From: a bacterium
GTDB taxonomy: Bacteria > Joyebacterota > Joyebacteria > Joyebacterales > Joyebacteraceae
Length of the DNA stretch: 48,078 nt
Direction of reading: 5' to 3'
NCBI GenBank assembly: GCA_025774245.1
Contig: JALGWI010000026.1
Location: 1-48,078 of the forward strand
Part shown: positions 12,422 through 30,186 of the stretch, one piece after another
How positions within the stretch are numbered: the stretch's first letter is position 1
Layout: each line of letters opens with the position of its first letter
Program-made: the position numbers and the translations under genes
The notes under the pieces: model-generated
Told to the model about the DNA's origin: nothing
What the model saw: only the letters and a program-made list of their open reading frames with translations
Database searches by the model: none

Positions 12422-12432
12422 CGGAGGAACAC

Positions 12433-12936
12433 GTGAAGTACCAGGTCGAGATCGCCGACGAGACGATCGAGCTCGAGGTCGAGAAGACCGACGAGGGCGC
12501 GAAGGTCACCGTCGGAGACGAGACGCAGCCCGCCGACCTCGTTCGCATCGGCAGGTCGCCGATCTACTCGCTCATCCTGGGCGACAGATCGTTCGAGGTG
12601 TCGGTACACAGGCGGGACAAGATCTACCAGATCGTCCTCGACGGGGCGACGTACGACGCGCGCGTCATGGACGAGCGGGCGCTCAGACTGGCGGCGGCGG
12701 GCGGCGCGGACGAGGAGGTGCGGGGCGAGGTCGTGAAGGCCCCGATGCCCGGCATCGTCGTCGGGATCGCCGTCGAGGTGGGCGGCACCGTCGAGCCCGG
12801 ACAGGGCGTGGTCACGCTCGAGGCCATGAAGATGGAGAACGAGCTCAAGAGCGCGGCCGGAGGCGTCGTGAAGGAGATCAAGGTCGAGGTCGGCCAGGGT
12901 GTGACCCAGGGCGAGGACCTCGTGGTGATCGAGTAG
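12433..12936 (+). CDS. Biotin carrier protein with N-terminal BT-like region (propionate cassette)
   Basis: The 167-residue protein starts at GTG 12433, five bases after GGAGG. The last 75 residues form a biotinyl domain with the biotin-accepting lysine in EAMKMEN. The first 90 residues are predicted strands (alternating charged and hydrophobic, IADETIELEVEK, YSLILGDRSFEVSV) and look like the remaining barrel of a BT domain, which normally sits between biotin carboxylase and carrier in PccA. It thus supplies the piece the preceding gene lacks. Its TAG stop is immediately followed, in the same frame, by the coding sequence of the mutase at 12937. Confidence 0.9.
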   Translation: MKYQVEIADETIELEVEKTDEGAKVTVGDETQPADLVRIGRSPIYSLILGDRSFEVSVHRRDKIYQIVLDGATYDARVMDERALRLAAAGGADEEVRGEVVKAPMPGIVVGIAVEVGGTVEPGQGVVTLEAMKMENELKSAAGGVVKEIKVEVGQGVTQGEDLVVIE

Positions 12937-12954
12937 CGTGCGATCGAGCAGCGT
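12928..12954 (+). repeat. Near-identical 12-mers spanning a stop codon
   Basis: ATCGAGTAGCGT (12928-12939) and ATCGAGCAGCGT (12943-12954) differ at one base, with a period of 15 bases, so they are in the same frame. In the first copy the differing base makes the TAG that ends the biotin carrier gene; in the second it is CAG (Gln) at the start of the mutase coding sequence. Confidence 0.85.
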
Positions 12955-14595
12955 CTCGCGGCCGAGTTCGGTCAGACGCATCAGCGGACGCTCGAGCGGT
13001 TCCCCGAGAGGAGGAAGGCGTTCGCGACGCAGTCGGGCGTCGAGATCGACCGCCTCTACACCGCAGACGATCTCCCGGACTCGCTCGAGGCGGACCTCGG
13101 GTTTCCCGGTGAGCACCCGTTCACGCGCGGCGTCCACCCGACGATGTACCGCGGGCGCCTCTGGACGATGCGGCAGTACGCCGGGTTCGGCACCGCGGCG
13201 GAGACGAACAGGAGGTTCCGCTACCTCTTGGAGCAGGGCCAGACCGGCCTCTCCGTCGCGTTCGACCTCCCGACGCAGATGGGCTACGACGCCGACCACA
13301 GGATGGCGGAGGGCGAGGTCGGGCGCGTCGGCGTCTCGATCTGCTCGGTCGAGGACGTGAAGACCCTGTTCGAGGGCATTCCGCTCGACGAGGTCTCGAC
13401 CTCGATGACGATCAACGCGACGGCTCCGTTCGTGATGGCGATGTACCTCGTCGCCGCCGAGGAGGCGGGCGCGGAGCGGGCGGGCCTCCGGGGAACCGTC
13501 CAGAACGACATTCTCAAGGAGTACGCCGCCCGCGGCACCTACGCGTACCCGCCCGCGGAGTCGGTCGGGTTCGCGATGGACCTCTGCGCGTTCTGCAGCT
13601 TGGAGGTCCCGAAGTGGAACACGATCTCGGTCTCGGGCTACCACATCCGCGAGGCCGGCGCGACGGCGGTGCAGGAGCTTGCGTTCACGCTCGCCGACGC
13701 CGTCGCCTACGTCGAGGCCGCGAGGAAACGCGGGATCGACCTCGAGACGTTCGCGGGAAGGCTCTCGTTCTTCTTCGACGCGCACAACGACCTCTTCGAG
13801 GAGGTCGCGAAGATGCGCGCGGCGAGGAGGATGTGGGCGCGGATAGTCGGTGAGCGCTTCGGCATCGACTCCCCGCGCGCGCAGATGCTCCGGTTCCACA
13901 CGCAGACGGCCGGGGTGAGCCTCACGGCGCAGCAGCCCGAGGTGAACGTCGTCCGCGTCGCCGTTCAGGCGCTCGCGGCCGTGCTCGGCGGGACGCAGTC
14001 GCTCCACACGAACTCGCGCGACGAGGCGCTGGCGCTCCCGACCGAGGAGAGCGCGCGGATCGCGCTTCGGACGCAGCAGGTGATCGCGGAGGAGTCGGGG
14101 GTGGCAAACGTCGCCGATCCCCTGGGCGGCTCCTACTACGTCGAGTGGCTGACCGACCGGATCGAGCGCGACGCGCTCACAGAGCTAACGACGATCGACG
14201 AGATGGGCGGCGCGACGCAGGCGATCGAGAAGGGCCACTACCAGAGATCGATCGCGAAGAGCGCCTACCGCCAGCAGAAGGAGATCGAGGAGGGCGAGCG
14301 GGTCGTCGTCGGCGTGAACCGCTACGCGATCGACGAGCCGCCGCGGATGGAGATCCTCCGCGTCGATCCCGCGCTCCGGGACGAGAAGACGGCGTCGCTC
14401 GCGGATCTAAAGGCGGGACGCGACCGGGCGGCGGTCGAAGAGGCCCTGGGCCGGCTCACGGACGCGGCGCGAGGCGGCGAGCCGACGATGCCCGCGATCA
14501 TCGAGTGCGCGCGGAGGCGCGCGACGCTGGGCGAGATGTCCGCCGCCGTCGAGAAGGTGTTCGGAAGGTACCGCCCTTCGGGGAGCCTCTGGTAG
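12937..14595 (+). CDS. Methylmalonyl-CoA mutase large subunit without a normal start codon
   Basis: The frame encodes the whole mutase barrel (about 552 codons). Tyr81 (RQYAGFG), Arg199 (YAARGTY) and His236 (SGYH) match Tyr89, Arg207 and His244 of methylmalonyl-CoA mutase, so it should convert methylmalonyl-CoA to succinyl-CoA. The B12 domain is absent. Recognisable N-terminal sequence (LERFPERRKAFATQSG, GFPGEHPFTRG) reads back to the TAG of the preceding gene with no in-frame ATG, GTG or TTG until ATG 13144, which lies inside the conserved barrel. GTG 12938 is one base out of frame; a single lost G would explain this. The usual PSMRI segment is ESVGF here, which is unusual. I give the frame limits; the true start is unknown. 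Confidence 0.82.
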   Translation, partial: RAIEQRLAAEFGQTHQRTLERFPERRKAFATQSGVEIDRLYTADDLPDSLEADLGFPGEHPFTRGVHPTMYRGRLWTMRQYAGFGTAAETNRRFRYLLEQGQTGLSVAFDLPTQMGYDADHRMAEGEVGRVGVSICSVEDVKTLFEGIPLDEVSTSMTINATAPFVMAMYLVAAEEAGAERAGLRGTVQNDILKEYAARGTYAYPPAESVGFAMDLCAFCSLEVPKWNTISVSGYHIREAGATAVQELAFTLADAVAYVEAARKRGIDLETFAGRLSFFFDAHNDLFEEVAKMRAARRMWARIVGERFGIDSPRAQMLRFHTQTAGVSLTAQQPEVNVVRVAVQALAAVLGGTQSLHTNSRDEALALPTEESARIALRTQQVIAEESGVANVADPLGGSYYVEWLTDRIERDALTELTTIDEMGGATQAIEKGHYQRSIAKSAYRQQKEIEEGERVVVGVNRYAIDEPPRMEILRVDPALRDEKTASLADLKAGRDRAAVEEALGRLTDAARGGEPTMPAIIECARRRATLGEMSAAVEKVFGRYRPSGSLW

Positions 14596-14635
14596 CGGCG
14601 GGAAGCCGACCCCACTCGGGCGAGCTGGAGACACG

Positions 14636-15070
14636 ATGTCCGACGCACCGACCACGAAAGCCAGGAAGATCGATCACGTCTCGTTCGTGGTCGAGAGCGT
14701 CGACGAGGCGCTCAAGCTCTACGCCGGCCTCCTCGGGCTCGAGGTCGTCAAGGTCGAGGAGTCCGAGCTTCACGGCGTCAAGGCCGCGTTCCTCAAGGCC
14801 GGCGACGTCATGGTCGAGATCATCGAGCCTCTGGGGCCCGGACCGATCCAGGACTTCCTCGACAGGCGCGGCCCCGGATTTCACCACCTCGCGTACGAGG
14901 TGCCCGACGTTCCTGAGGGACTCGCGGCCGCCGAGGCGGCCGGCTTCCGCGTCATCGACGGAAAGCCCAAGCCTGGAATCGAGGGAGGAAGGATCGCGTT
15001 CCTTCACCCGAAGAGCACGTTCGGGGCAATGACCGAGATGTGCGACAAGAAGGAGTTCGAAGAGGAATGA
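14636..15070 (+). CDS. mce: Methylmalonyl-CoA epimerase
   Basis: The 144-residue VOC-superfamily protein has two beta-alpha-beta-beta-beta units. Likely metal ligands are His14 (KIDHVSF), His83 (FHHLAYEV) and Glu133 (MTEMCD), as in characterised epimerases. It interconverts the (S) and (R) forms of methylmalonyl-CoA, linking propionyl-CoA carboxylase to the mutase, both encoded just upstream. Its stop overlaps the next start by ATGA, so it is coupled to the leucine-dehydrogenase-like gene. Confidence 0.93.
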   Translation: MSDAPTTKARKIDHVSFVVESVDEALKLYAGLLGLEVVKVEESELHGVKAAFLKAGDVMVEIIEPLGPGPIQDFLDRRGPGFHHLAYEVPDVPEGLAAAEAAGFRVIDGKPKPGIEGGRIAFLHPKSTFGAMTEMCDKKEFEEE

Positions 15071-16113
15071 ACATCTTCGACCGGATGAAGAGGAACAGGC
15101 ACGAGCAGCTCATCTTTTGTTACAACCGGCAGACCAGCCTCCGGGCGATCATCGCCATCCACGACACAACGCTCGGGACGTCGGTCGGCGGCACGCGCCT
15201 GATGGAGTACGGCAGTGAGGACGAGGCGATCGTCGATGCGCTCAGGCTCTCCGAGATGATGACCTACCAGAGCGCGTCGTTCGAGGCCGACATGGGCGGG
15301 GGGAAGGCGATCCTCATGGCCGAGGAGGGGCAGGAGATCGACGAGGCGTACTTCCGCGCGTTCGGCAGGTTCGTCGAGGGACTGAAGGGCCTCTTCGTGA
15401 CGTACCCGGCGTTCGGGACGTGCGACCGCGACTTCCTCCACGTCCGGCGCGAGACCGCGAGCGTCGTCCCGATGGAAGGGAGCCACGAGATCACCGGTAT
15501 GGGCGTTCTCTGGGGGATGAAGGCCTGCGTGCGCGACCTCAAGGGCACGTCCAGCCTCAAGGGGCTGCACGTCGCGGTCCAGGGCGTCGGGAAGGTGGGC
15601 GCCTTCATCGTCGACAAGCTCGCCGAGGAGGACGCCGTGATCACGATCACCGACGTCCAGTACGATCGCCTCAAGGCCGTTCAGGACGCCCACCCCGGCG
15701 TCAGGATCGTGCGCCCCGATCGTATCCTCGAGGTCGAGTGCGACGTCCTCTCGCCGTGCGCGGTCGGGAGGATCCTGAACGACGAGACGATTCCGACGCT
15801 TCGGTGCACGATCGTCGCCGGGTGCGCCTCGGACATCCTCGAGGCGCCGCAGCACGCCGAGGTCCTGAAGGAGCGCGGGATTCTCTACGCGCCCGACTTC
15901 GTGATCGCGGGCGCCGAGCTCTACCAGACGGAACCGCACCTGAGGAACGCGCCGAGGGAACGCCTGCTCGAGGAGGCGCGACGCGTCTACGACGTGATGG
16001 CCGACATCATCACGACGGCGAAGAAGGAGAACACGACCCCGTACCACGTGGCCGTCGGCAACGCCGCGTGGCGGGTCGGCAGGATACAGCTCATTCGCAA
16101 CATCATGTGCTGA
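15067..16113 (+). CDS. Leucine-dehydrogenase-like protein, substrate-binding Lys and catalytic Asp replaced
   Basis: The 348-residue protein follows leucine dehydrogenase end to end and shares its numbering through residue 120: IHDTTLGTSVGGTR at the N-half, GVGKVG as the NAD-binding loop, and SPCAVG in the C-half. Leucine dehydrogenase uses Lys68 to hold the substrate carboxylate, Lys80 as catalytic base and Asp115. Here these positions are Gln68 (MTYQSA), Lys80 (MGGGK) and Ala115 (VTYPAFGT). It may act on a different substrate or may not be an amino-acid dehydrogenase at all. It starts at ATG 15067, overlapping the epimerase stop. A paralogue at 28307 has a complementary set of changes. Confidence 0.85.
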   Translation: MNIFDRMKRNRHEQLIFCYNRQTSLRAIIAIHDTTLGTSVGGTRLMEYGSEDEAIVDALRLSEMMTYQSASFEADMGGGKAILMAEEGQEIDEAYFRAFGRFVEGLKGLFVTYPAFGTCDRDFLHVRRETASVVPMEGSHEITGMGVLWGMKACVRDLKGTSSLKGLHVAVQGVGKVGAFIVDKLAEEDAVITITDVQYDRLKAVQDAHPGVRIVRPDRILEVECDVLSPCAVGRILNDETIPTLRCTIVAGCASDILEAPQHAEVLKERGILYAPDFVIAGAELYQTEPHLRNAPRERLLEEARRVYDVMADIITTAKKENTTPYHVAVGNAAWRVGRIQLIRNIMC

Positions 16114-17561: not shown

Positions 17562-18605
17562 ATGGCAGGAATCATCGGTTACGGCGCCTACGTGCCCCGG
17601 AACAGGATCAAGGTCGAGGAGATCGCCAAGGTCTGGGGAGCCGATGCGCCGAGCTACAAGCGCGGGCTGATGCTCCAGGAGAAGTCGGTCCCGTCGCCGG
17701 ACCAGGACGTCATCACGATGTCGGTCGAGGCGACGAAGCACGCGCTCGCGCGAGCGCAGATCGACCCGGCCAGAATCGGAGCGGTCTACGTCGGGTCCGA
17801 GTCGCACCCCTACGCGGTCAAGCCTTCGGGCACGGTGCTCGCCGAGGCGATCGGCGCGACGCCCGAGGTCCACTGCGCCGACTTCGAGTTCGCCTGCAAG
17901 GCGGGGTCGGAGGCGATGTTCGTCTGCATGGGACTCGCCGACGCGGGGAGCATCGAATACGGTCTCGCCGTCGGCGCCGACACGTCGCAGGGAGCGCCGA
18001 GCGACGCGCTCGAGTACTCGGCAGCGGCCGGGGCCGCGTCGTTCATCATCGGACGCGATCCCGGCGTCGCGAAGGTGATCGACACCTACGCCTTCATGAC
18101 CGACACGCCCGACTTCTGGCGGCGGAGCTACATGCACTACCCGCGTCACGCGGGCCGCTTCACGGGCGAGCCGGCGTACTTCAAGCACATCACCAGCTGC
18201 GCGAACGGCATCATGGAGAAGGTCAACATGAAGCCGAAGGACTTCGCGTACGTGGTCTTCCACCAGCCGAACGGGAAGTTCCCGCAGCGGGTCGGGAAGA
18301 TGCTGGGGTTCACGAAGGAGCAGATCGAGCCGGGGTGGCTCTCGCCGACCCTCGGCAACACGTACTCGGGCAGCTCCCCGATGGGGCTGACGGCGACGCT
18401 CGACGTCGCGAAGCCCGGCGACATGATCCTCATGGTCAGCTACGGCTCCGGCGCGGGCAGCGACGGGTTCGTCTTCGAGGTGACCGGCAAGATCGACGAG
18501 GTCAGAAACGTCGCCCCGCGGACGAGGGAGCTTCTCGACAAGAAGAAGTACATCGAGTACGGCACCTACGCCAAGTACCGCCGGAAGATCCGAATGGGCG
18601 AGTAG
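17562..18605 (+). CDS. Archaeal-type hydroxymethylglutaryl-CoA synthase
   Basis: The 347-residue protein matches the short archaeal HMG-CoA synthase family in length and motifs. Expected catalytic residues are present: Glu80 (VGSES), Cys112 (FEFACKAG) and His234 ([10 protein letters not shown]). It condenses acetyl-CoA with acetoacetyl-CoA to HMG-CoA, or in reverse splits HMG-CoA. It is followed by a thiolase and a DUF35 protein, the same trio that forms a channelled complex in archaea. Here the trio is joined to methylcrotonyl-CoA carboxylase and methylglutaconyl-CoA hydratase genes, so leucine breakdown is a likely setting; no HMG-CoA lyase is visible. ATG 17562 follows a GAGAGG. Confidence 0.9.
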
Positions 18606-18678
18606 CCGCGACGCGGCAGCGCGGCCACCGGCAGGTGCCGGACACCGCAGCACCGAACCGAACCGACAGGAGACACAC

Positions 18679-19836
18679 ATGAGGGACGTGGCAGTCATAG
18701 GCGTGGGGATGCAGAAGTGGGGAGAGCTCTGGAAGAAGTCCCTGCGCGACATCTTCACGGAATCGGCGTTGCTCGCGATCGACGAGGCGGGCGTCGACCG
18801 CATCGACTCGATGTACGTGGGCTGCATGTCGAGCGGCCTCTTCGTCGGTCAGGAGCACCTGGGGTCGCTCCTGGCGGACTACCTCGGCGTGGCGCCGATC
18901 CCGGCGCTCCGCGTCGAGAGCGCGTGCGCCTCGGGAGGCGCCGCCTTCCGGCAGGCCTACTTCGACGTGGCCTCGGGCGCGAACGACATCGTCCTTGCAG
19001 GCGGCGTCGAGAAGATGACCGACGTGGACGGTGGGGGAGCGACCTTCGCGCTCTCGACCGCCGCCGACGCGGAGTACGAGGTCTACAGCGGCGTGACCTT
19101 CCCGGGCCTCTACGCGATGGTCGCGGTCGCTCACATGCACGCCTACGGGACGACGCGCGAGCAGCTGGCGGAGGTCTCCGTCAAGAACCACAAGAACGGC
19201 GCCTTGAACCCGCTCGCGCAGTACCCGTTCGAGGTCACGGTCGATCAGGTCCTGAGCTCGGTCATGATCGCTGATCCGCTGACGATCCTCGACTGCTCGC
19301 CGATCACCGACGGCGCGGCTGCCGCGATCCTCTGCCCGCTCGACATGGTCGACGATCTCACCGACAACGAGCCGGTCAAGATCCTCTCGTCGGCGCACGC
19401 GACCGACTCGATCGCGCTCCACTCGAGGAAGGACCTCACGTGGCTCTCCGCCGTCGCGAAGGCGGGGCAGATCGCCTACAAGTCGGCGGGCCTGACGCCC
19501 TCCGACATCGACTTCGTCGAGGTTCACGACTGCTTCACGATCGCAGAGATCTGCGCGATCGAGGCCCTCGGGTTCTTCGAGAAGGGGAAGGGCGGCACGG
19601 GCGCCGCGAGCGGCGAGACGGCGATGGGCGGACGCATCCCGGTGAACCCGTCCGGCGGACTCAAGTCGAAGGGCCACCCGGTCGGCGCGACCGGCATCGC
19701 GCAGATCGTCGAGACCGTGAAGCAGCTTCGCGGCGACGGCGGCGAGCGCCAGGTCGAGGGCGCCAGGGTCGGTATGGCCCAGAACATGGGCGGCACCGGC
19801 GGATCGTGCGTCACGCACATCCTGGGGAAGGCGTAG
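18679..19836 (+). CDS. Archaeal-type acetoacetyl-CoA thiolase
   Basis: The 385-residue thiolase has Cys83 in ESACASGG as nucleophile, HDCFTIAE as the histidine motif and [14 protein letters not shown] near the end. This subfamily (SCP2-thiolase-like) is the partner of archaeal HMG-CoA synthase. It makes or cleaves acetoacetyl-CoA. An AGGAG precedes ATG 18679. With the synthase and DUF35 protein it probably forms one complex in which acetoacetyl-CoA is passed internally (known for the archaeal homologues; inferred here). Confidence 0.93.
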
Positions 19837-19909
19837 CCGGCGGCGAGGCGGCGCGCCGGACGCGCGCCGGGCCACGCGAACCGATTCCAGAGGACACGGA
19901 GGGCAACGG

Positions 19910-20305
19910 ATGTCGACATCAGCGAAGTACTGGAGGGGAATCCCCCAGCGGTACCGCCTCGAGGCGGAGCGATGCGCGAGCTGCGGCATGGAGTTCTTTC
20001 CGCCCAGGCTCGTCTGCTCGGGCTGCGGCGCGAGGAAGTTCATGCCGATCACGCTCGGCGACCACGGTAAGCTCTTGACCTACACGGTGATCAGGGTCGG
20101 TCCGTCGGAGTTCTGCGAGCAGACCCCGTACGCGATGGGGATCGTGGAGCTGGAGGGCGGTGTGCGCATGACCGCCCAGATCGCCGACGTCGACTTCGAC
20201 GATCTCGAGGTCGGGATGCCGGTCAGGATCGAGTTCAGGAAGATCCGCGAGGAAGGTCAGGCGGGGATCCTCTGCTACGGCTACAAGTTCGTGCCCGCGG
20301 ACTAG
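19910..20305 (+). CDS. DUF35 zinc-ribbon/OB-fold scaffold protein
   Basis: The 131-residue protein has an N-terminal zinc ribbon (Cys22, Cys25, Cys36, Cys39: CASCG and CSGCG) followed by an OB-fold (LGDHGKLLTYTVIRVG, PYAMGIVELEGG). In the archaeal complex the DUF35 protein bridges thiolase and HMG-CoA synthase and forms part of the shared CoA site. Gene order thiolase then DUF35 is as expected. It has no enzymatic residues of its own. Confidence 0.92.
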   Translation: MSTSAKYWRGIPQRYRLEAERCASCGMEFFPPRLVCSGCGARKFMPITLGDHGKLLTYTVIRVGPSEFCEQTPYAMGIVELEGGVRMTAQIADVDFDDLEVGMPVRIEFRKIREEGQAGILCYGYKFVPAD

Positions 20306-20358
20306 CGGGCGCGACGACCGGCGCGATCGACGAGCGTCACTGAGGAGAGGTCCGTTCG

Positions 20359-21966
20359 ATGTATCGGATCGAGAGCAAGGTCGACTCGAAGAGCACCGAG
20401 TTCCAGGAGAACAGGACCCGGATGCTCGAGGTGGTCGAGGAGTTCAGGGAACGGCTCGACCGGACGAGCCTGGGCGGCCCCGAGTCCCAGCGCGAGCGCC
20501 ACAAGAAGCGGGGCAAGCTCCTCGTCCGCGAGCGGCTCGAGAAGCTGTTCGATCCCATGTCGCCGTTCCTCGAGCTGTCGCCGCTGGCGGCGCACGACAT
20601 GTACGAGAACGAGGCGCCGGGCGCGGGGATGGTGACGGGTGTCGGGCGCGTGCACGGCCGCGAGGTGCTCGTGGTCGCGAACGACGCCACCGTGAAGGGC
20701 GGCACGTACTTCCCGATGACCATCAAGAAGCACCTGCGGGCGCAGGAAGTCGCCATGGAGAACCGCCTCCCGTGCGTCTACCTCGTCGACTCGGGCGGCA
20801 TCTTCCTGCCGCACCAGTCCGGGACGTTTCCCGACAAGGATCACTTCGGACGCATCTTTATGAACCAGGCGCGGCTCTCGGCCATGGGGATCCCGCAGAT
20901 CTCGATCGTGATGGGCTCCTGCACGGCGGGCGGCGCCTACGTTCCCGCGATGAGCGACGAGACGGTGATCGTGAAGGAGCAGGGGACGATCTTCATCGGC
21001 GGGCCGCCGCTCGTGAAGGCAGCAACCGGTGAGGAGGTGACGGCGGAGGAGCTCGGCGGGGCCGACGTGCACTGCCGGATCTCGGGCGTCACCGACCACT
21101 ACGCGGTGAACGACGAGCACGCGCTCGCGATCGCGCGCAACATCGTGGAGAACCTGGACGGGCCGAGGAGGTTCGAACTCGACGTGTCGGAGCCCGAGGA
21201 CCCGGCGTACGATCCGGAGGAGCTCTACGGGATCGTCCCGCCCGACCTCAGGAGGCCCTTCGACATGCGCGAGGTCATCGCCCGGATCGTCGACGGCAGC
21301 CGTTTCCACGAGTTCAAGGAGCTCTACGGCATCACGCTCGTCACGGGGTTCGCGCGGATCATGGGATACCCCGTCGGGATCCTCGCCAACAACGGCGTCC
21401 TCTTCTCGGAGAGCGCCAAGAAGGGCGCGCACTTCATCGAGCTGTGCACGACGAGGAAGATCCCGCTCGTGTTCCTCCAGAACATCACCGGGTTCATCGT
21501 CGGCCGGCAGTACGAGCACGGCGCCATCGCGAGCGACGGCGCGAAGCTCGTCCACGCCGTCGCGAACGCCGACGTCCCGAAGTTCACCGTCATCGTGGGC
21601 GGGTCGTACGGGGCCGGGAACTACGGGATGTGCGGGCGCGCCTACGATCCCAGGCTCCTCTGGATGTGGCCGAACGCGAAGATCTGCGTGATGGGCGGCG
21701 AGCAGGCGGCGAGCGTCCTTCTCACGGTCAAGATGCGGCAGCTCAAGAAGCGGGGCAAGGAGATGTCGCCCGAGGAGCAGCAGGCGTTCATGAAGCCCAT
21801 GATCGAGCGCTACGAGCAGGAGGCCGCGGCGTACTACTCGACGGCCAGGCTCTGGGACGACGGGATCATCGATCCGCTCGACACGCGGTCGGTCCTGGCG
21901 CTCGGGATCGCGATGTCCCTGAACGCGACGATTCCGGATCAGAGGTTCGGCGTCTTCAGGATGTAG
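20359..21966 (+). CDS. liuB: Methylcrotonyl-CoA carboxylase carboxyltransferase (beta) subunit
   Basis: The 535-residue carboxyltransferase has the methylcrotonyl-specific pattern: [58 protein letters not shown] and [16 protein letters not shown]. It carboxylates 3-methylcrotonyl-CoA to 3-methylglutaconyl-CoA in leucine breakdown. It differs clearly from PccB at 9241. The hydratase for its product and the matching biotin carboxylase and carrier genes follow directly. Confidence 0.94.
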
Positions 21967-22073
21967 TCTACGGGACGGAGCCGGCGCGATCGGTTCCGTG
22001 CGACAAGCGCAGGCGCCGTTCGCGCGGCGCGGCTTGCGGGCGAGCGGCTCTCGCACAAGGGGTGACACCGCAC

Positions 22074-22868
22074 ATGAGCGACTACACGACGATCAGGGTT
22101 GCGATCGAAGAGCAGGTGGCGACGATCACGCTCTCGCGGCCCGAGGTCAAGAACGCGTTCAACGACGTGATGCTCGACGAGCTCCTCGACGCGTACCGGA
22201 AGCTCGAGGACGATCCCGACGTCCGGGTCGTCGTCCTGACGGGGGAGGGGAACTCGTTCTGCGCGGGCGCCGACCTCAACTACATGAAGCACACGGCCAA
22301 CTACACGTTCGAGGAGAACCTCGCCGACAGCCTCAAGATCTCAGACCTCATGGAGCTCATTCACAAGCTTCGGAAGCCGACCGTCGCGCGCGTGAACGGC
22401 TACGCGATCGGCGGAGGCGCGGGCCTGATGGCGGCGAACGACATCGTGATCGCGTCGAAGGAGGCCAGGATCAGCCTCTCCGAGGTGAAGATCGGTCTCG
22501 TGCCGGCGTGCATCTCGCCGTACGTCGTCATGCGCGCGGGACCGGGGGCGTGTCGCGAGTTCTTCCTGTCGGGCGAGCGCATGAAGGCGAAGAAGGCGTA
22601 CCGGCTCGGGCTCGTGAACGACGTCGCCGACGACGACGAGCTCGACGAGTGCGTGGCGAAGGTGGTTGGTCGGCTGATCTCGAGCGGGCCGGAGGCGCTC
22701 CGCGTCTGCAAGGACCTCCTCGACCACGTGAGGGAGATGCCGCTCTCCGAAGCCAAGAAGTACACGGCGAAGGTCATCGCCGAGGTGCGGGTGTCGGAAG
22801 AGGGCCAGGAGGGCATGACCGCGTTCCTCGAGAAGCGGAAGCCGTCCTGGGTCGAGGAGAAGGACTAG
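22074..22868 (+). CDS. liuC: Methylglutaconyl-CoA hydratase (LiuC-type crotonase)
   Basis: The 264-residue crotonase-fold protein has CAGADLNYM (oxyanion region) and GYAIGGGAGL where ordinary enoyl-CoA hydratases have GGGxE, so the first catalytic Glu is Gly. The second Glu is kept in LSEVKIGLVPACISPYV. This pattern is that of LiuC-type methylglutaconyl-CoA hydratases, which make HMG-CoA. Position between the beta and alpha subunits of methylcrotonyl-CoA carboxylase supports the call. The 107 bases before ATG 22074 hold no recognisable feature. Confidence 0.88.
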   Translation: MSDYTTIRVAIEEQVATITLSRPEVKNAFNDVMLDELLDAYRKLEDDPDVRVVVLTGEGNSFCAGADLNYMKHTANYTFEENLADSLKISDLMELIHKLRKPTVARVNGYAIGGGAGLMAANDIVIASKEARISLSEVKIGLVPACISPYVVMRAGPGACREFFLSGERMKAKKAYRLGLVNDVADDDELDECVAKVVGRLISSGPEALRVCKDLLDHVREMPLSEAKKYTAKVIAEVRVSEEGQEGMTAFLEKRKPSWVEEKD

Positions 22869-22939
22869 CCGAGGGCGCTCGCCGGGCCCGAGGGTCCGGG
22901 GCGCCGGCGCAGGACGTCCCAGCGCCACATGGAAGGAAC

Positions 22940-24448
22940 ATGAAGAAGATCCTCATCGCCAACCGCGGCGAGATCGCGGTCCGCGTCATCCGTGCCTGCC
23001 GGGACATGGGGATACCGGCGGTCGCCATCTACTCTGACGCCGACAGGGCGTCTCTCCACGTGCTCGAGGCCGAGGAGGCGGTCCGCGTCGGCCCCGCCCC
23101 CGCGCTCGAGAGCTACCTCGACATCGACGCCGTGATCGCGGCGGCGCGGAAGGTCGGCGCCGACGCGGTCCATCCCGGGTACGGCTTCCTCGCCGAGAAC
23201 GCGCGGTTCGCCTCGCGCTGCGAGGAAGAGGGGATCACGTTCATCGGTCCGACGTCCCTGGCCCTCTCTCTCGTCGGCGACAAGATTCGCTCGCGCGAGA
23301 CGATGAAGGCCGAGGGCGTTCCGATCATCCCGGGCATGCTCGGGAAGGGCAGCGGCCTCGCGGAGTATCGGTCGAACGCGCGCGAGATGGGCTACCCCGT
23401 TCTCGTCAAGGCCTCCGCGGGGGGTGGGGGGAAGGGGATGACCGTCGTGAGGGCGGAGGACGACCTCGCGGGCGCGCTCGAGGCGTCGAGCCGCGTGGCG
23501 AAGTCGGCGTTCGGCGACGACACGGTCTACATCGAGAAGCTGATCGAACGCCCGCGGCACGTCGAGTTCCAGATCCTCGCCGACACGCACGGGAACGTCG
23601 TCCACCTCTTCGAGCGAGAGTGTTCGATCCAGAGGAGGCACCAGAAGATCGTCGAGGAGTCGCCTTCGACGGCCGTCGATCCCGAGCTCAGGGCGAGGAT
23701 GGGCGAGACCGCCGTCCGCGTCGCGCACGCGGTCGACTACACCAACGCGGGCACGGTGGAGTTCCTGCTCGACGAGGACGGGCACTTCTACTTCCTCGAG
23801 GTGAACGCGCGCGTCCAGGTCGAGCACCCCGTGACCGAGTTCGTGACCGGCGTCGACATCGTGCGCGAGCAGATCCTGATCGCGTCGGGCGAGAAGCTCG
23901 ATCTCACGCAGGACGATCTCGCGCAGCGCGGCCACGCGATCGAGTGCCGGATCTACGCGGAGGATCCTCGGAACGACTTCCTGCCGTCGGCCGGCACCGT
24001 GACGCTCTTCCGCGAGCCGTCGGGTCCCGGCGTCCGCCACGACTGCGGCATCTACGAGGGCTGGGACGTGCCGGTCCACTACGACCCGATCCTCTCGAAG
24101 CTCATCGTGCACGCCGGCGACCGCGAGGCCGCGCGGCAGCGGATGCTCCGCGCTCTCTCGGAGACGACGATCCTCGGCATCGAGACGACGGTCGAGTACC
24201 TGAAGGCGATCATCGAGAGCCCGGCCTTCGCGTCGGGCGACACGCAGACCGATTTCATCGAGAAGCACATGGCGGACTGGGGCGGCGAGGCCGAGTCCGG
24301 CGCTGCCGCCGGTGAGCTCGCGGACGTCGCGCTCATCGCCGGCGCGCTCGCGCTCTCCTCGGAGAGGGCCCCGGGCTCGGTGGTGAAGGAGCGCGCGTCG
24401 TCGCCGTGGGACACGCTCGGCAGCTGGCGCGTCGGCGGAGACCGCTGA
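22940..24448 (+). CDS. liuD: Biotin carboxylase subunit of methylcrotonyl-CoA carboxylase
   Basis: The 502-residue protein has all biotin carboxylase motifs: ILIANRGEIAVRV, SAGGGGKGMTVV, ECSIQRRHQK and EVNARVQVEHPVTE. It ends with SSPWDTLGSWRVGG, which in full-length methylcrotonyl-CoA carboxylase alpha chains is the entry into the BT domain; the rest of that chain is in the next gene. GGAAGGA lies three bases before ATG 22940. The same cut point is seen in the propionyl-CoA carboxylase genes. Confidence 0.92.
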   Translation: MKKILIANRGEIAVRVIRACRDMGIPAVAIYSDADRASLHVLEAEEAVRVGPAPALESYLDIDAVIAAARKVGADAVHPGYGFLAENARFASRCEEEGITFIGPTSLALSLVGDKIRSRETMKAEGVPIIPGMLGKGSGLAEYRSNAREMGYPVLVKASAGGGGKGMTVVRAEDDLAGALEASSRVAKSAFGDDTVYIEKLIERPRHVEFQILADTHGNVVHLFERECSIQRRHQKIVEESPSTAVDPELRARMGETAVRVAHAVDYTNAGTVEFLLDEDGHFYFLEVNARVQVEHPVTEFVTGVDIVREQILIASGEKLDLTQDDLAQRGHAIECRIYAEDPRNDFLPSAGTVTLFREPSGPGVRHDCGIYEGWDVPVHYDPILSKLIVHAGDREAARQRMLRALSETTILGIETTVEYLKAIIESPAFASGDTQTDFIEKHMADWGGEAESGAAAGELADVALIAGALALSSERAPGSVVKERASSPWDTLGSWRVGGDR

Positions 24449-24528
24449 CCGGCCCGGCCCGGGCGCGCCTGACGACCGCGGCGCGGGCCCGACCACCTCG
24501 CGGCACGCCGGACCAACAGGGAGACATC

Positions 24529-25038
24529 GTGGACTTCGAGTTCCAGATCAACGGGCAGAAGCGGAAGGTCACGACCGACGGGCGGAGGCCCCTGACCTCC
24601 GTGAGCGTCGACGAACGGTCGTACGAGGTCGACTGGCGGCGCGTCGAGGGCGGCGTGATCTCGCTCATCGTCGACGGGCGGTCGCACACCGCCCGCGTCG
24701 CGCGGCGCGACGGAGGCCTCGCCGTCTCGATCGACGGCCGGCGCTACGTCCTCGAGACCGGAGGCGACGACGAGAGCTTCGCGGGGGCGGGCGGCGCCGT
24801 CGGCGGCAGCGGGAAGATCAAGGCCCCGATGCCTGGAACGGTCGTGAAGGTCGCCGTCTCCGAGGGCGACGAGGTCGCGGTGGGACAGAGCCTCGTCATC
24901 GTCGAAGCGATGAAGATGGAGCACAACGTCCGCTCGCCGATCGCAGGCCTGGTCGCGAAGGTGAGCGTGGCGGCGGGCGACTCGGTCGGCACGACCGAGG
25001 CGATGGTCGAGATCGAACCCGGCGATTCCGAAGGATAG
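24529..25038 (+). CDS. Biotin carrier protein with N-terminal BT-like region (leucine cassette)
   Basis: The 169-residue protein starts at GTG 24529, five bases after AGGGAG. Residues 1-85 are a strand-rich region resembling the BT barrel (FEFQINGQKRKV, SYEVDWRRVEGG); the last 75 residues are a biotinyl domain with the biotin lysine in EAMKMEH. It completes the split alpha chain begun by the preceding gene. Biotin is presumably attached by the ligase encoded at 29380. Confidence 0.9.
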   Translation: MDFEFQINGQKRKVTTDGRRPLTSVSVDERSYEVDWRRVEGGVISLIVDGRSHTARVARRDGGLAVSIDGRRYVLETGGDDESFAGAGGAVGGSGKIKAPMPGTVVKVAVSEGDEVAVGQSLVIVEAMKMEHNVRSPIAGLVAKVSVAAGDSVGTTEAMVEIEPGDSEG

Positions 25039-25062
25039 AGCGCGCGAACGAAAGGAAGCACC

Positions 25063-26220
25063 ATGCTGAGCGTCCTCTACACCGACGAGGAAAACGCGTT
25101 CCGGGAAGAGGTGAGGGAATTCGCGGAGACGGTGGTCGCTCCCGAGGCCGACGCGATCGAGGAGAGCGGAGAGTACCCGCGGGAACTCCTCAAGAAGGTC
25201 GGCGCGGCGGGGTACATGGGCGCCCTCCTGCCTCCCGAGTACGGCGGCACGGGGCTCGGGATGGTCGCCGAGACGATCATCGCGGAGGAGATCTCCGCGG
25301 TCTGCCCGATGCTCGACGTGACGCGCGGCGTGACGTCGGTCTACTTCGCCCCGCCCGTCTACAAGTTCGGGAGCGACGAGCAGAAGAAGACGTACCTGCC
25401 GTCGATCATCACGGGCGATAAGATCGGGGCGATCGGGATCACGGAACCCGACGTCGGCTCCGACACGGCCGGCATGAAGACGCGGGCGGTCAAGGTCGGC
25501 GACGACTACGTCATCGACGGCGAGAAGCGGTTCATCACGAACGGCAGCCTGGCCGACTTCATCCTCCTCTTCGCCGTGACCGATCCGTCGGTCAAGGCGC
25601 GAAAGGGGATGAGCGCGTTCATCTTCGAGGCCGACAACCCGGGCTTCAGCGTCGTCAAGGACTACGACCTCATGGGGATGAACGGGCTCAAGGTCTCGCA
25701 CCTCAAGTTCGAAAGGGCGCGGATCCCGGCCTCGGCGCTCCTCGGCGAGGAGAACAAGGGGTTCGCGATCCTCATGGACGAGCTCGACACCGAGCGCACA
25801 TCGCTCGCGGCGGGGGCCGTCGGCTACTCGCGCGCCGCGTTCGAGTTCGCCGTCAAGCACTCGACCGAGCGCGAGCAGTTCGGACGGCAGATTCGGATGT
25901 TCGAGGGCGTGAGCTTCAAGATCGCCGACATGGCCGTCAAGATCGACGCGGCCCGGCTCCTGACGCTCCAGACCGCGCGCATGATCGAGAAGGGACTCCC
26001 GGCGAGCCGCCAGGGCGCGTCGGCGAAGCTCTTCGCGTGCAACGCCGCGCAGGAGATCTGCTACGACGCGGTCCAGATCCTGGGCGGCATCGGCTACATG
26101 AAGGAGAGCAAGACCGAGCAGCTCTTCCGCGACGCGAGGCTCATGCCGATCGGCGGCGGGACCGCCGAGATCATGCAGTTCCTCATCCAGCGCGAGGTCT
26201 ACAAGGAGAGGGGATACTGA
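25063..26220 (+). CDS. Acyl-CoA dehydrogenase, isovaleryl-CoA dehydrogenase-like catalytic arrangement
   Basis: The 385-residue flavoenzyme lacks Glu at the usual C-terminal site (MPIGGGTAEIM, Gly365 instead of Glu). It has Glu244 in LDTERTSL, matching Glu254 of human isovaleryl-CoA dehydrogenase in helix G. Only the isovaleryl-CoA and long-chain groups use that position. With the leucine genes directly upstream, isovaleryl-CoA is the most likely substrate, though a long-chain or other substrate is possible. Electrons go to ETF. Confidence 0.9.
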   Translation: MLSVLYTDEENAFREEVREFAETVVAPEADAIEESGEYPRELLKKVGAAGYMGALLPPEYGGTGLGMVAETIIAEEISAVCPMLDVTRGVTSVYFAPPVYKFGSDEQKKTYLPSIITGDKIGAIGITEPDVGSDTAGMKTRAVKVGDDYVIDGEKRFITNGSLADFILLFAVTDPSVKARKGMSAFIFEADNPGFSVVKDYDLMGMNGLKVSHLKFERARIPASALLGEENKGFAILMDELDTERTSLAAGAVGYSRAAFEFAVKHSTEREQFGRQIRMFEGVSFKIADMAVKIDAARLLTLQTARMIEKGLPASRQGASAKLFACNAAQEICYDAVQILGGIGYMKESKTEQLFRDARLMPIGGGTAEIMQFLIQREVYKERGY

Positions 26221-26288: not shown

Positions 26289-27404
26289 ATGGACGAAACG
26301 AAGAAGGGCAAGGAGCTCATACTCGTTCTGAACCCCGGGTCGACGTCGACGAAGCTCGCGGTCTTCGAGGGAGAAAACTGCCTCTTCCACGACGCCGTCG
26401 AGCACAGCGCCCTCGAACTCGCCCAATACCCGAAGGTGTGGGGTCAGTACGAGTACCGCAAGGGACTGATCCTCGAATTCCTCGCTGACAGCGACGTATC
26501 GCTGAGCTCGCTCACTGCCGTCGTCGGGCGGGGCGGCCTCTTCCAGCCCACCGTCAGCGGCACGTATCGTGTCAACGAGGCGATGATCGCGGACGCGCGG
26601 GACGAGAAGACGGAGGAGCACCCGTCGAACCTCGGCGCCGTGCTCGCCTACGGGATCGCTTGGGACTTCGGCATCCAGGCGTTCATCGTCGACCCGCCTT
26701 GCGTCGACGAGCTGGACATCGTCGCGCGCTACTCGGGCATTCCCGAGATCAGAAGAACAAGCCAGGTCCACGCCCTGAACGTCAAGGCGACCGCGCGAAC
26801 GGTGGCGACGAAGCTCGGGAACAAGCTCGCCGACACGAACCTCGTGGTCGCGCACCTGGGTGGCGGGATCAGTGTCGTCGCCATCAGGAAGGGGAGGATG
26901 ATCGACGTCTCGAACGCGATTCACGCGGGGCCGTTCACGCCCGAACGCGCGGGGTCGCTCCCGACGGTCGATTTCCTCAAGCTGTGCTTCTCGGGGGACT
27001 ACGAGCATGACGAGCTCAAGAAGAAGCTCGTCGGCCAGGGCGGGCTCATGGCCTACCTCGGAACGAAGGACGCGAAGGAGGTCGAGGCCCGCGCCGGGAA
27101 CGGCGACGAGCGCGCGGCCCGCATCCTCGACGCGATGGTCTACCAAATCGCGAAGGAGGTCGGGGCGATGGCGACGGTCCTCAGGGGCGACGTCGACGCG
27201 ATCGTGCTGACGGGAGGGCTCGCGAAGTCCGGAGTCATCACCGAGGGCATACGCAAGCGCGTCGGCTCGATCGCGGACGTAGTGCTGGTCCCGGGAGAGG
27301 ACGAGCTCGAAGCCCTGGCGCTCGGTTGCCTGCGGGTGCTCCGCGGCGAGGAGGAGGCGAAGATCTACCCCGAGACCGTCGAAGAGGCGACCATCGAGCT
27401 CTGA
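26289..27404 (+). CDS. buk: Butyrate / branched-chain fatty acid kinase
   Basis: The 371-residue ASKHA kinase has NPGSTSTKLAVF at the start, VGRGGLFQP, VAHLGGGISVVA and VLTGGLAKSG, the standard butyrate kinase motifs. It interconverts acyl phosphate plus ADP with butyrate (or isobutyrate/isovalerate) plus ATP. The usual partner, phosphate butyryltransferase, is not in the window, so either it lies elsewhere or the kinase works with another acyl-phosphate source. Its place suggests ATP gain from, or activation of, short branched acids. Confidence 0.92.
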   Translation: MDETKKGKELILVLNPGSTSTKLAVFEGENCLFHDAVEHSALELAQYPKVWGQYEYRKGLILEFLADSDVSLSSLTAVVGRGGLFQPTVSGTYRVNEAMIADARDEKTEEHPSNLGAVLAYGIAWDFGIQAFIVDPPCVDELDIVARYSGIPEIRRTSQVHALNVKATARTVATKLGNKLADTNLVVAHLGGGISVVAIRKGRMIDVSNAIHAGPFTPERAGSLPTVDFLKLCFSGDYEHDELKKKLVGQGGLMAYLGTKDAKEVEARAGNGDERAARILDAMVYQIAKEVGAMATVLRGDVDAIVLTGGLAKSGVITEGIRKRVGSIADVVLVPGEDELEALALGCLRVLRGEEEAKIYPETVEEATIEL

Positions 27405-27446: not shown

Positions 27447-28235
27447 ATGGCCTTCAAGAACATCAGCATCGAGAAGGACGGGCTCACGGCGATCGTCACG
27501 ATCGACCGGCCCGAAGCGATGAACGCCCTGAACGGCGAGACGATGGAAGAGCTCATCCACGCGATGAAGGAGATCGAGGCGGACGACGAGGTCGGCGCGG
27601 TCGTCCTGACCGGCGCCGGCAAGGCGTTCGTCGCCGGGGCCGACATCGCTGAGCTCTCGAAGATGGGGGGCATGGAGGCGAGGGAGGCGTCGAGGCTCGG
27701 GCAGACTGCGTTCTCGGTCATCGAGAACCTGTCGAAGCCGGTCATCGCGGCGGTGAACGGGTTCGCGCTGGGCGGCGGGCTCGAGATCGCGATGGCGTGC
27801 GACATCCGCATCGCCTCCACGAAGGCGAAGATGGGGCACCCCGAGGTCAAGCTCGGCGTGACGCCCGGGTTCGCCGGGACGCAGCGGCTTCCGAGGCTGG
27901 TGGGGTTCGGGCGGGCCAAGGAGCTCATCCTGCTCGGCGATCCGATCGACGCGCAGACGGCGCTCTCGTACGGCCTCGTCAACAAGGTCGTCGAGCCCGA
28001 CGAGCTTCTGGACGCCGCGAAGGCGATGGCCGAGAAGATCGCATCGCGCGGTCCCGCGGCGATCGCTCTCGTCAAGGCGTGCATCAACAAGGGCGCGGGC
28101 GTCGACCTCGAGACCGGGGGCGCGCACGAGGCGGAGGCGTTCGGGCTCTGCTTCGGGATCGGTGACGCCCGGGAAGGCATTGAGGCGTTCTTCGAGAAGA
28201 GGGAGCCCTCTTGGCTCCGGAAGAAGAAGGAATAG
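27447..28235 (+). CDS. Enoyl-CoA hydratase (crotonase)
   Basis: The 262-residue protein keeps both catalytic glutamates of enoyl-CoA hydratase: GGGLEIAMACD and HPEVKLGVTPG. The oxyanion region is FVAGADIAEL. It hydrates crotonyl-CoA and similar short enoyl-CoAs. It starts with an AGGGAGAAGAG upstream. Together with the dehydrogenase at 30994 and a thiolase it gives a complete beta-oxidation round for butyryl-CoA. Confidence 0.92.
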   Translation: MAFKNISIEKDGLTAIVTIDRPEAMNALNGETMEELIHAMKEIEADDEVGAVVLTGAGKAFVAGADIAELSKMGGMEAREASRLGQTAFSVIENLSKPVIAAVNGFALGGGLEIAMACDIRIASTKAKMGHPEVKLGVTPGFAGTQRLPRLVGFGRAKELILLGDPIDAQTALSYGLVNKVVEPDELLDAAKAMAEKIASRGPAAIALVKACINKGAGVDLETGGAHEAEAFGLCFGIGDAREGIEAFFEKREPSWLRKKKE

Positions 28236-28306: not shown

Positions 28307-29383
28307 ATGGACATCTTCAAGGCTCTCGAGGAGCTCGAGCACGAACAGGTCGCGTTCGCCTTCGACGAGGTCGCGGGGCTCCGCGGCATCGTGGCGATCC
28401 ACAGCACGGTGCTGGGTCCCGCCATCGGCGGAACGCGCATGCGCGAGTACGACCGCGAGGAGGACGCGCTCGAGGACGCCCTCCGGCTCTCGCACGGGAT
28501 GACCTACAAGGCCGCCGCGGCGGGTCTGAACTTCGGCGGCGGCGCCGCCGTGATCATCGGCGATCCCGAGAAGGACAAGAGCGAGGCGCTCTTCCGCGCG
28601 CTCGGGCGGCAGATCGCGAGCCTGAACGGCCGGTACATCACCTCGCAGGGCCTCGGGACCGACGTCGAGGACATGCAGATCATCAAGGTCGCGACCGATC
28701 ACGTCGTCGGCCTGCACGAGGCCTACGGAGGGTGCGGCGACCCCTCGCCGGTCACGGCGCACGGGGCGCTCCACGGGCTCAGGGCCTGTCTCGAGGAGAT
28801 GGGGAGGGAGCCTGAGCTTACGGGGCTCACGGTCGCGATCCAGGGCCTGGGGCGCGGCGGCTCGGAACTCGCGCGGCAGCTCCTCCGCGAGGGCTCGAGG
28901 GTGGTAGGGAGCGACATCAGCCCGGCGGTCGCCGACCGGGTGCGCGAGGAGCTCGCGATCGACGTGGTCGATCCCGACGCGATCTACGACGTCGAGTGCG
29001 ACATCTGGAGCCCGTGCGCGGTCGGTGAGGTCCTGGGTCCCGACACGATCCCGCGGCTCAGGTGCCGGATCGTGGCCGGGCTCGCGAACAACCAGCTCGT
29101 CGAGGAGGCGCACGTCGGGATCCTCGCCGAGCGTGGGATCCTCTACGCCCCCGACTTCGTCTTCAACGCCGGCGCGATCATCGCCGTAACGGAGGAGATC
29201 GCCGGGTTCTCGGAGGATCGCGCGAAGCGCCGCTCCGAGAACATCTACCTCGTTCTCAAGAAGGTGTTCGCGCTCTCTCGCGAGCGGAAGATCAGCACGG
29301 CCGAGGCCGCGAACGTCGTGGCCGAAGACCGGATCTGCCAGGTGGGGAGCCTCTCGGGTCGAACGAGGTACTCCTGCGGATGA
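28307..29383 (+). CDS. Leucine-dehydrogenase-like protein, catalytic Lys and Asp replaced
   Basis: The 358-residue protein aligns with leucine dehydrogenase without gaps through residue 120 and has the NAD loop GLGRGGSE. The carboxylate-binding Lys68 is kept (MTYKAAAAG) but the catalytic Lys80 is Ala (FGGGAAVIIGDP) and Asp115 is Gly (ITSQGLGTDV). Such a protein should not carry out normal oxidative deamination. The paralogue at 15067 has Gln68, Lys80 and Ala115. Start ATG 28307; its stop overlaps the biotin ligase start by ATGA. Confidence 0.85.
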   Translation: MDIFKALEELEHEQVAFAFDEVAGLRGIVAIHSTVLGPAIGGTRMREYDREEDALEDALRLSHGMTYKAAAAGLNFGGGAAVIIGDPEKDKSEALFRALGRQIASLNGRYITSQGLGTDVEDMQIIKVATDHVVGLHEAYGGCGDPSPVTAHGALHGLRACLEEMGREPELTGLTVAIQGLGRGGSELARQLLREGSRVVGSDISPAVADRVREELAIDVVDPDAIYDVECDIWSPCAVGEVLGPDTIPRLRCRIVAGLANNQLVEEAHVGILAERGILYAPDFVFNAGAIIAVTEEIAGFSEDRAKRRSENIYLVLKKVFALSRERKISTAEAANVVAEDRICQVGSLSGRTRYSCG

Positions 29384-30186
29384 GCCAGGTGACGTCAGAG
29401 CGCGCGTCGGAGCGCGACCTCGGTCTCACGACGAGGTTCATCGGACGGAGGATCCATCGGTACGGTTCCGTCGCCTCGACGAACGCCGTCTGCTGGGAGC
29501 TGGCGGCGCGGGGCGAGCCCGAGGGCACGGTCGTCCTGGCCGACGAGCAGACCGGCGGGCGCGGCCGCTCGGGCCGCACGTGGGACTCGCCCGCGGGGAT
29601 GGGCATCTGGGTGTCGATCCTACTCTCCCCGGGCCTTCCCGTGGATCGAGTCGCACCGCTCTCCGTCGTGACCGCGATCTCCGTGGCCGACGCGCTCCGG
29701 ACGATCACGGGCGTCGAGATCGGCGTCAAGTGGCCGAACGACCTCGTCGCGGGCGGCAGGAAGCTCGGCGGCGTGCTCGTCGAGTCCGGCGAGACGGTCG
29801 GCGACCCGGTCGAGAGCGCGGTCGTCGGGATCGGGATCGACGTCGCCCAGGATGAGGACGACTTCCCGCCGGAGCTTCGCGGGAGGGCGACATCGATCAG
29901 GATCCTCACGGGCGCGACCCCGGATCGCGACGCGTTGCTCGCCGCGATCCTGACGCAGTTCGAAGAGGACTACCGCCGCTACGTGACGGGAGGGTTCCCG
30001 GCGATGCGCGAGCGGTGGCGGACCCTCTCGACGACGCTCGGCGGCAGCATCGAGGTCGAGAGCGGGGGGGAGCGGCGCTCGGGGAAGGTCGTCGACATCT
30101 CGGACGGTGGCGCCCTCGTGATCGAAGCGGAGGGTCGCCGCGAGGAGATCTGGCACGGGGACGTGACGCTCACGCCGGACCCGTGA
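29380..30186 (+). CDS. birA: Biotin--protein ligase
   Basis: The 268-residue protein has the catalytic domain motifs of biotin ligase (STNAVCWE, TGGRGRSGRTW, GVKWPNDLV, KLGGVLVE) and a small C-terminal beta domain (GKVVDISDGGALVI). There is no N-terminal DNA-binding domain, so it is not a repressor. It should attach biotin to the two carrier proteins encoded at 12433 and 24529; being in the same gene run matches supply to demand. Confidence 0.94.
   Translation: MSQVTSERASERDLGLTTRFIGRRIHRYGSVASTNAVCWELAARGEPEGTVVLADEQTGGRGRSGRTWDSPAGMGIWVSILLSPGLPVDRVAPLSVVTAISVADALRTITGVEIGVKWPNDLVAGGRKLGGVLVESGETVGDPVESAVVGIGIDVAQDEDDFPPELRGRATSIRILTGATPDRDALLAAILTQFEEDYRRYVTGGFPAMRERWRTLSTTLGGSIEVESGGERRSGKVVDISDGGALVIEAEGRREEIWHGDVTLTPDP

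Follow-up and report, generated by a model that had tools for sequence, protein, structure and literature searches.

An operon for leucine catabolism in an uncultured bacterium, in which an archaeal-type thiolase/HMG-CoA synthase/DUF35 complex probably replaces HMG-CoA lyase

Gene organization of the locus

The window analyzed here, a stretch of 48,078 nucleotides (contig JALGWI010000026.1), belongs to an uncultured bacterium near Ca. Effluviviacota ('Eisenbacteria'). The preliminary description had recognized, at positions 17562–26220, an archaeal-type HMG-CoA synthase (HMGS), a thiolase and a DUF35 protein in a leucine pathway, and every gene it named was found there on the + strand, as are all genes described below. 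The trio consists of: (i) HMGS (17562..18605), which scores 542 bits against TIGR00748 (cut-off 353) and 462 bits against chain I of the Methanothermococcus complex 6ESQ; (ii) an acetoacetyl-CoA thiolase of the archaeal complex type (18679..19836; NF004720, 546 bits, over cut-off; 6ESQ chain A, 372 bits); and (iii) a DUF35 zinc-ribbon/OB protein (19910..20305; PF12172 and PF01796; 6ESQ chain E, 115 bits). For each of the three, the corresponding 6ESQ chain is the closest solved structure, with homology over the full length. In the archaeal complex, the DUF35 protein bridges thiolase and synthase. The catalytic residues are present in both enzymes (Glu80, Cys112, and His234 in HMGS; Cys83 and His333 in the thiolase), and the HMGS catalytic motifs are kept in 79–80 of 80 loci; the catalytic residues of the archaeal HMGS are Cys114 and Glu82 (PMC6392133). 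As a lead only, 17 HMGS columns that are conserved in the bacteria differ from one archaeal sequence.

The trio is followed without interruption by the three genes of methylcrotonyl-CoA carboxylase (MCC), a LiuC-type hydratase and an isovaleryl-type dehydrogenase, as described previously, except that the hydratase does not come after all of the MCC genes but lies between those for the carboxyltransferase and the biotin carboxylase. The MCC carboxyltransferase subunit (MCCB; 20359..21966; PF01039) falls in the MCCB tree and has an MCC beta chain (3U9R, 779 bits) as its best PDB match; most propionyl-CoA carboxylase (PCC) beta chains score at most 286 bits, and one PCC-named entry scores 778. 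The LiuC-type 3-methylglutaconyl-CoA hydratase (22074..22868) matches NF004227 with 261 bits, which is below the cut-off but the top of 73 families. Next come the biotin carboxylase subunit (22940..24448; PF00289, PF02786, and PF02785; ATG start) and the biotin carrier subunit with an AMKM biotin site (about 24529..25038, the GTG start being a choice; PF00364 and a weak BT_MCC_alpha match). The acyl-CoA dehydrogenase (25063..26220; PF00441/02770/02771) has E244 at the base position of isovaleryl-CoA dehydrogenase (IVD) and G365 at the ordinary short-chain position. The parts of a leucine (liu) pathway are therefore present, namely MCC alpha and beta, methylglutaconyl-CoA hydratase and IVD, with substrate specificities predicted from sequence.

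Intergenic gaps from HMGS to the acyl-CoA dehydrogenase are 24–107 bases, and the cluster continues downstream with a butyrate (branched-chain acid) kinase (26289..27404; NF002834, 500 bits, and TIGR02707, 475 bits, both over cut-off), a short-chain enoyl-CoA hydratase (27447..28235; NF004475, 349 bits, below the cut-off of 394), a leucine dehydrogenase-type amino acid dehydrogenase (28307..29383; PF02812/PF00208; top PDB match leucine dehydrogenase, 371 bits), and a biotin protein ligase (29380..30186; PF03099) that overlaps the stop of the leucine dehydrogenase gene. A 3-hydroxyacyl-CoA dehydrogenase (PF02737) is encoded at 30994..32373; such a gene also flanks the cluster in other phyla (loci L058, L063, L091, and L116). 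Upstream lie a second leucine-dehydrogenase-like gene (15067..16113; PF02812/PF00208; NF035922, 278 bits) and an adjoining propionyl-CoA block (9241..15070) comprising a carboxylase (CT, BC, and BCCP), methylmalonyl-CoA mutase and epimerase.

Pathway genes in the host genome

The preliminary description had seen no HMG-CoA lyase in the window, and a search with NF004283 (E 0.001) extended this absence to the host genome and to all 20 genomes of the family. HMG-CoA reductase (PF00368) likewise gave no match in the host genome, and DXR of the MEP route was found, indicating that isoprenoids are made via MEP; the synthase is thus without a visible mevalonate role. The genomic half of the counter-evidence envisaged earlier, a lyase and a mevalonate pathway elsewhere in the genome, was therefore looked for and is absent, which favors the trio as the replacement for the lyase.

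Salvage of free acetoacetate in the host was considered and rejected: a PF01144 search for family-I CoA-transferase had no match, and acetoacetyl-CoA synthetase (AACS) was found neither in the host nor, over cut-off, in any of 41 genomes, although this search had no positive control, since the control genomes gave no over-cut-off match either. A CoA-transferase was found in one other trio-bearing genome, G003.

Recurrence across genomes and phyla

The order HMGS-ACAT-DUF35-MCCB-LiuC-BC-BCCP is kept in 43 of the 49 loci that have at least 8 kb of downstream sequence, including records labeled Zixibacteria, Aminicenantes, Gemmatimonadota, TA06, and Delongbacteria. The same order in several phyla excludes a chance arrangement. 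A lyase over cut-off is absent from 45 of 50 trio genomes, among them five records labeled chromosome, and co-occurs with the trio in the other five; HMG-CoA reductase is absent from 44 of the 50, with one strong match among the remaining six.

Trio and lyase tend to be mutually exclusive in genomes that carry MCC. Among 29 such genomes from outside the family, the lyase occurs in 2 of 8 with the trio and in 17 of 21 without it (Fisher p 0.009). Where the lyase is present and the trio missing, the lyase gene lies inside the MCC operon (seven loci), and in the MCCB tree the trio-type and lyase-type sequences are separate, with few changes between the two. Four MCC genomes have neither trio nor lyase, so that MCC without a known ending also exists.

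These data give good support to a replacement of the lyase by the trio in leucine catabolism, and the gene evidence for a lyase-free ending is strong. The component enzymes are known; the variant of leucine catabolism is new. No account of the trio with leucine degradation, of HMGS reversal, or of leucine use in these phyla was found in the open-licence literature, and the paper on Ca. Effluviviacota mentions neither leucine nor HMG.

Proposed mechanism and energetics

We consider it probable that the operon serves leucine catabolism and that its archaeal-type complex replaces HMG-CoA lyase by working in reverse. The reverse flux is a prediction from gene content and homology, as are the formation of the complex, its substrate specificities and channelling. 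Leucine would be converted by leucine dehydrogenase to 2-ketoisocaproate, and this by a putative ketoacid oxidoreductase or dehydrogenase to isovaleryl-CoA, from which the IVD-type dehydrogenase, MCC and LiuC would lead to HMG-CoA. Cys112 of HMGS could then bind the free carboxyl end of HMG-CoA as a thioester, and retro-Claisen cleavage would yield acetoacetyl-CoA and acetyl-CoA. Acetoacetyl-CoA would be handed to the thiolase through the fused CoA site, and the favorable thiolysis may pull the unfavorable synthase step. The net reaction, HMG-CoA + 2 CoA → 3 acetyl-CoA + water, would form no free acetoacetate and need no acetoacetate activation, sparing a thioester.

HMG-CoA synthase is held to be a one-way enzyme because its forward reaction hydrolyses a thioester. 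Textbook values put the cost of the net reverse step about 18 kJ/mol above that of the lyase reaction, and the step would therefore work only if lyase-type cleavage is favorable or product levels are low; the open-licence literature yielded no thermodynamic value for HMGS. In procyclic T. brucei, tracer work led to the conclusion that the SCP2-thiolase/HMGS pair is not reversible in vivo (PMC5993337).

Comparison with known systems

The trio resembles the Methanothermococcus thermolithotrophicus complex (6ESQ/6ET9) in its three full-length subunits, its catalytic residues and the adjacency of its genes. In contrast to the archaeal case, it is operonic with MCC and LiuC, resides in a genome without HMG-CoA reductase, and is proposed to run in reverse. 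The cluster shares with the canonical liu operon the MCC subunits, the LiuC hydratase, the IVD-type dehydrogenase and the inner order MCCB-LiuC-BC-BCCP; on the other hand, the trio stands in the place of the lyase, and the predicted end product is acetyl-CoA only, with no acetoacetate. Reversed citrate synthase in the reversed oxidative TCA cycle of Desulfurella acetivorans offers an analogy only: there, too, an ATP-free condensing synthase serves as a CoA-dependent cleaving enzyme, but the enzyme is unrelated, and in the present case the thiolase would pull the reaction. Homologous thiolase/DUF35 complexes are found in the PhlABC acyltransferase, whose PhlA is also synthase-like, and in the BbsAB benzoylsuccinyl-CoA thiolase. 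These act on other substrates, and the Cys and Glu of the synthase are missing from PhlA; PhlABC acts reversibly (PMC6392133).

Direction of flux and alternative explanations

The operon might instead run forward, from three acetyl-CoA through HMG-CoA, methylglutaconyl-CoA and methylcrotonyl-CoA to isovaleryl-CoA, for iso-fatty acids or for isovalerate as an electron sink, with butyrate kinase supplying ATP. This is the natural direction of the synthase, and butyrate kinase lies within the operon; moreover, the host genome is without any HMGL-like gene, which speaks against isopropylmalate synthase too, so that leucine-derived isovaleryl-CoA would depend on uptake. A comparable gene set is the alternative myxobacterial isovaleryl-CoA route, which consists of MvaS, LiuC, AibA/B, and AibC and in which HMG-CoA synthase and LiuC likewise link acetyl-CoA with isovaleryl-CoA. 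Here, however, the archaeal-type trio stands for MvaS and MCC for AibA/B, the opposite direction is proposed, and no protein of PF01144, the superfamily of which AibA/B are distant members, was found in the host, although AibA resembles PF01144-type subunits only distantly. The decarboxylation would also need the biotin-dependent MCC to work against its ATP-driven direction, while leucine dehydrogenase, biotin ligase, the IVD-type dehydrogenase and the propionyl-CoA/methylmalonyl-CoA block fit catabolism. The ATP-driven MCC, together with leucine dehydrogenase and the island of branched-chain catabolic genes around them, makes the anabolic direction less likely than the catabolic one, and we regard it as unlikely.

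Slightly less plausible still is a catabolic pathway in which an unrecognised, non-homologous lyase cuts HMG-CoA, the trio working forward for another purpose or merely sharing the operon. An unrelated enzyme would be invisible to homology searches, and the four MCC genomes without either known ending are consistent with one. Such a lyase would nevertheless leave unexplained why, in several phyla and with HMG-CoA reductase absent, an HMG-CoA-making complex lies beside a catabolic route that makes HMG-CoA, and the host genome has no known enzyme that could reactivate the free acetoacetate it would release.

It is very improbable that trio and MCC together feed mevalonate-type or other biosynthesis from HMG-CoA, with leucine-derived HMG-CoA going to isoprenoids as in trypanosomatids. 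The archaeal complex does act in the mevalonate pathway, strong HMG-CoA reductase matches occur in G008 and G110, and a leucine-to-sterol flow exists in T. brucei (PMC5993337), but the absence of the reductase from the host and 44 of 50 others nearly refutes this use; for the synthase of the host genome, with DXR and no reductase, it was rejected. An equally slight chance attaches to the absences being artefacts of incomplete or mixed assemblies, for although most genomes are MAGs (the host being 97.4% complete with 3.2% contamination), the lyase is missing from 20 of 20 family genomes and from the five chromosome-labeled records at the cut-off used, and such an artefact was rejected because the gene order repeats in many independent assemblies, each time on one contig.

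Implications

In many uncultured bacteria, leucine breakdown appears to end with the trio and not with the lyase. On balance, we also favor a wider reading, in which a lyase-free leucine pathway is widespread among uncultured, probably anaerobic bacteria, with the channelled complex as an energy-saving HMG-CoA cleaver that is possibly reversible, the same operon also building isovaleryl-CoA as conditions dictate. If the catabolic reading is true, an enzyme known from textbooks as a one-way step of isoprenoid synthesis works backwards in nature, and an archaeal-type HMG-CoA synthase in bacteria is an unsafe sign of a mevalonate pathway. Predictions of leucine use from genomes would change, as bacteria scored as lyase-less, and hence as unable to finish leucine, could do so. 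Leucine catabolism would have a second ending, one that keeps the thioester that the lyase route loses as free acetoacetate, a saving that would matter to anaerobes whose energy supply is close to the minimum.

Gene content of the window

Through ORF finding and profile scans, an uninterrupted run of genes was identified on the forward strand, encoding an archaeal-type HMG-CoA synthase (HMGS; 17562-18605), a thiolase (18679-19836), a DUF35 protein (19910-20305), a methylcrotonyl-CoA carboxylase (MCC) carboxyltransferase (20359-21966), a LiuC-type hydratase (22074-22868), a biotin carboxylase (22940-24448), a biotin carrier (about 24529-25038), and an acyl-CoA dehydrogenase (25063-26220). This bears out the preliminary description, which had read a trio of synthase, thiolase and DUF35 protein followed by leucine genes at 17562-26220 and had seen no HMG-CoA lyase. 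Past 26220 the run goes on with genes for butyrate kinase and an enoyl-CoA hydratase, then a gene of leucine dehydrogenase type that a biotin protein ligase gene overlaps. The region upstream of the trio holds a propionyl-CoA block (carboxylase, methylmalonyl-CoA mutase, and epimerase). It also encodes EtfAB, another acyl-CoA dehydrogenase, a further mutase, and a second protein resembling leucine dehydrogenase. We infer from this gene set that the window holds an island for the catabolism of branched-chain amino acids.

The carboxyltransferase scores 779 bits against the P. aeruginosa MCC beta chain and at most 286 bits against most PCC beta chains, the exception being one PDB entry named PCC (778 bits). 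The dehydrogenase at 25063-26220 has Glu at the helix position of isovaleryl-CoA dehydrogenase (Glu254 in human IVD) and Gly where short-chain enzymes carry Glu; the window's other acyl-CoA dehydrogenase (7174-8325) shows the ordinary residue pattern. For the gene at 28307-29383, the best PDB matches are leucine dehydrogenases.

The butyrate kinase (26289-27404) adjoins leucine genes here, as it does in two loci from Zixibacteria (L058 and L063), which suggests that isovaleryl or isobutyryl phosphate yields ATP. Immediately 3' of EtfAB (22-1458) is a 693-aa flavoprotein (1475-3556) that carries 4Fe-4S domains and is a likely outlet for electrons from the acyl-CoA dehydrogenases. A sulfatase gene (5158-6729) separates the gene for a mutase large subunit (3569-5248) from that for a stand-alone B12-binding subunit (6761-7111).

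Lyase, mevalonate, and acetoacetate enzymes

The HMG-CoA lyase model has no match, even at E 0.001, in the window's genome (3.23 Mb, 128 contigs, 97.4% complete), nor in any of the 20 genomes of its family. Because isopropylmalate synthase-like proteins match this model weakly in other genomes, the lack of any match here argues against their presence as well. HMG-CoA reductase and PF01144 CoA-transferase are likewise without a match in this genome, as is acetoacetyl-CoA synthetase (E limit 1e-60), and DXR is present; the genome thus shows neither a use of the synthase for mevalonate nor a route of acetoacetate reactivation. One family genome with 5% contamination (G008) has a strong HMG-CoA reductase match (L134), on a short contig (C482) carrying none of the leucine genes.

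Distribution across genomes

A scan of species genomes gave 378 stretches encoding synthase relatives. Records titled Eisenbacteria, Zixibacteria, and Aminicenantes supply most of the best 80, and others carry the titles Gemmatimonadota, TA06, Ignavibacterium, Delongbacteria, Planctomycetota, Acidobacteria, and Clostridiales; these names are record titles, which may be wrong for MAGs. The thiolase directly follows the synthase in all 63 loci with room for it. Of the 49 loci that extend 8 kb or more downstream, 43 group all seven genes, for HMGS, thiolase, DUF35 protein, MCC carboxyltransferase, LiuC, biotin carboxylase, and biotin carrier. In 45 of 50 trio genomes no lyase passes the cut-off (0/5 have one among trio records titled chromosome), and HMG-CoA reductase was not found in 44 of 50, the other six including one strong match.

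In five loci (L094, L101, L107, L110, and L112), the trio is followed by a LiuC-like hydratase with MCC not adjoining, possibly a second context of the trio. A FHA-GAF-kinase lies 5' of the trio in L094 and L112, and 2-oxoacid:ferredoxin oxidoreductase genes lie 3' in L094 and L101.

Probable replacement of the lyase

Outside the family, 29 genomes carry a close MCC carboxyltransferase (identity of at least 55%). The archaeal-type synthase is present in eight, two of which also have a lyase, and a lyase is present in 17 of the 21 others, with G027 scored as lyase-bearing although below the cut-off (Fisher exact p = 0.009, uncorrected for relatedness). G044, G173, G196, and G225 have a close MCC carboxyltransferase and neither enzyme. 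In seven lyase genomes, the lyase shares an operon with the MCC genes. On a quick tree of the carboxyltransferase, lyase-type and trio-type sequences nearly separate; the trio label requires 3 changes where shuffling gives a mean of 11.6 (0/500 shuffles as low), a clustering made easier by related rows. The occurrence pattern is that expected when one module takes over a step from another, and the genomics strongly supports the view that the trio replaces HMG-CoA lyase in leucine catabolism. A published description of the trio in this role was not found in the open-licence papers searched, which is no proof of novelty.

Catalytic residues and direction

The top solved-structure match of each subunit is the corresponding chain of 6ESQ, the Methanothermococcus thiolase/HMGCS/DUF35 complex. 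Residues named for this complex in the literature are HMGCS Glu82 and Cys114, and thiolase Cys85 (PMC6392133); their equivalents in the window are E80, C112, and C83, and the histidines H234 and H333 are likewise present. All 80 related loci keep the Glu and Cys motifs of the synthase, and 79 keep the His motif. This conservation indicates that, by sequence, the trio is catalytically intact. The M. thermolithotrophicus enzyme departs at 17 HMGS columns from a residue that 95% or more of 81 bacterial synthases share; two of these columns (117 and 241) lie close in sequence to the catalytic Cys and His.

The products of HMG-CoA lyase are acetyl-CoA and free acetoacetate; run in reverse, the trio would convert HMG-CoA and two CoA into three acetyl-CoA. 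With acetoacetyl-CoA hydrolysis at about -44 kJ/mol and thiolysis at about -26 kJ/mol, textbook values place the net reverse trio reaction ~18 kJ/mol above the lyase reaction, a figure that is a difference only. Channelling, with thiolysis as a pull, would make the predicted reverse flux plausible. A precedent is the reversed citrate synthase of Desulfurella, likewise an ATP-free synthase in reverse (PMC9768450). Tracer work in trypanosomes concluded that their thiolase/HMGS pair runs only towards HMG-CoA, which counts against reversal, but in that organism the pair serves sterols (PMC5993337). Putative reverse flux would be the simplest mechanism by which the trio replaces the lyase.
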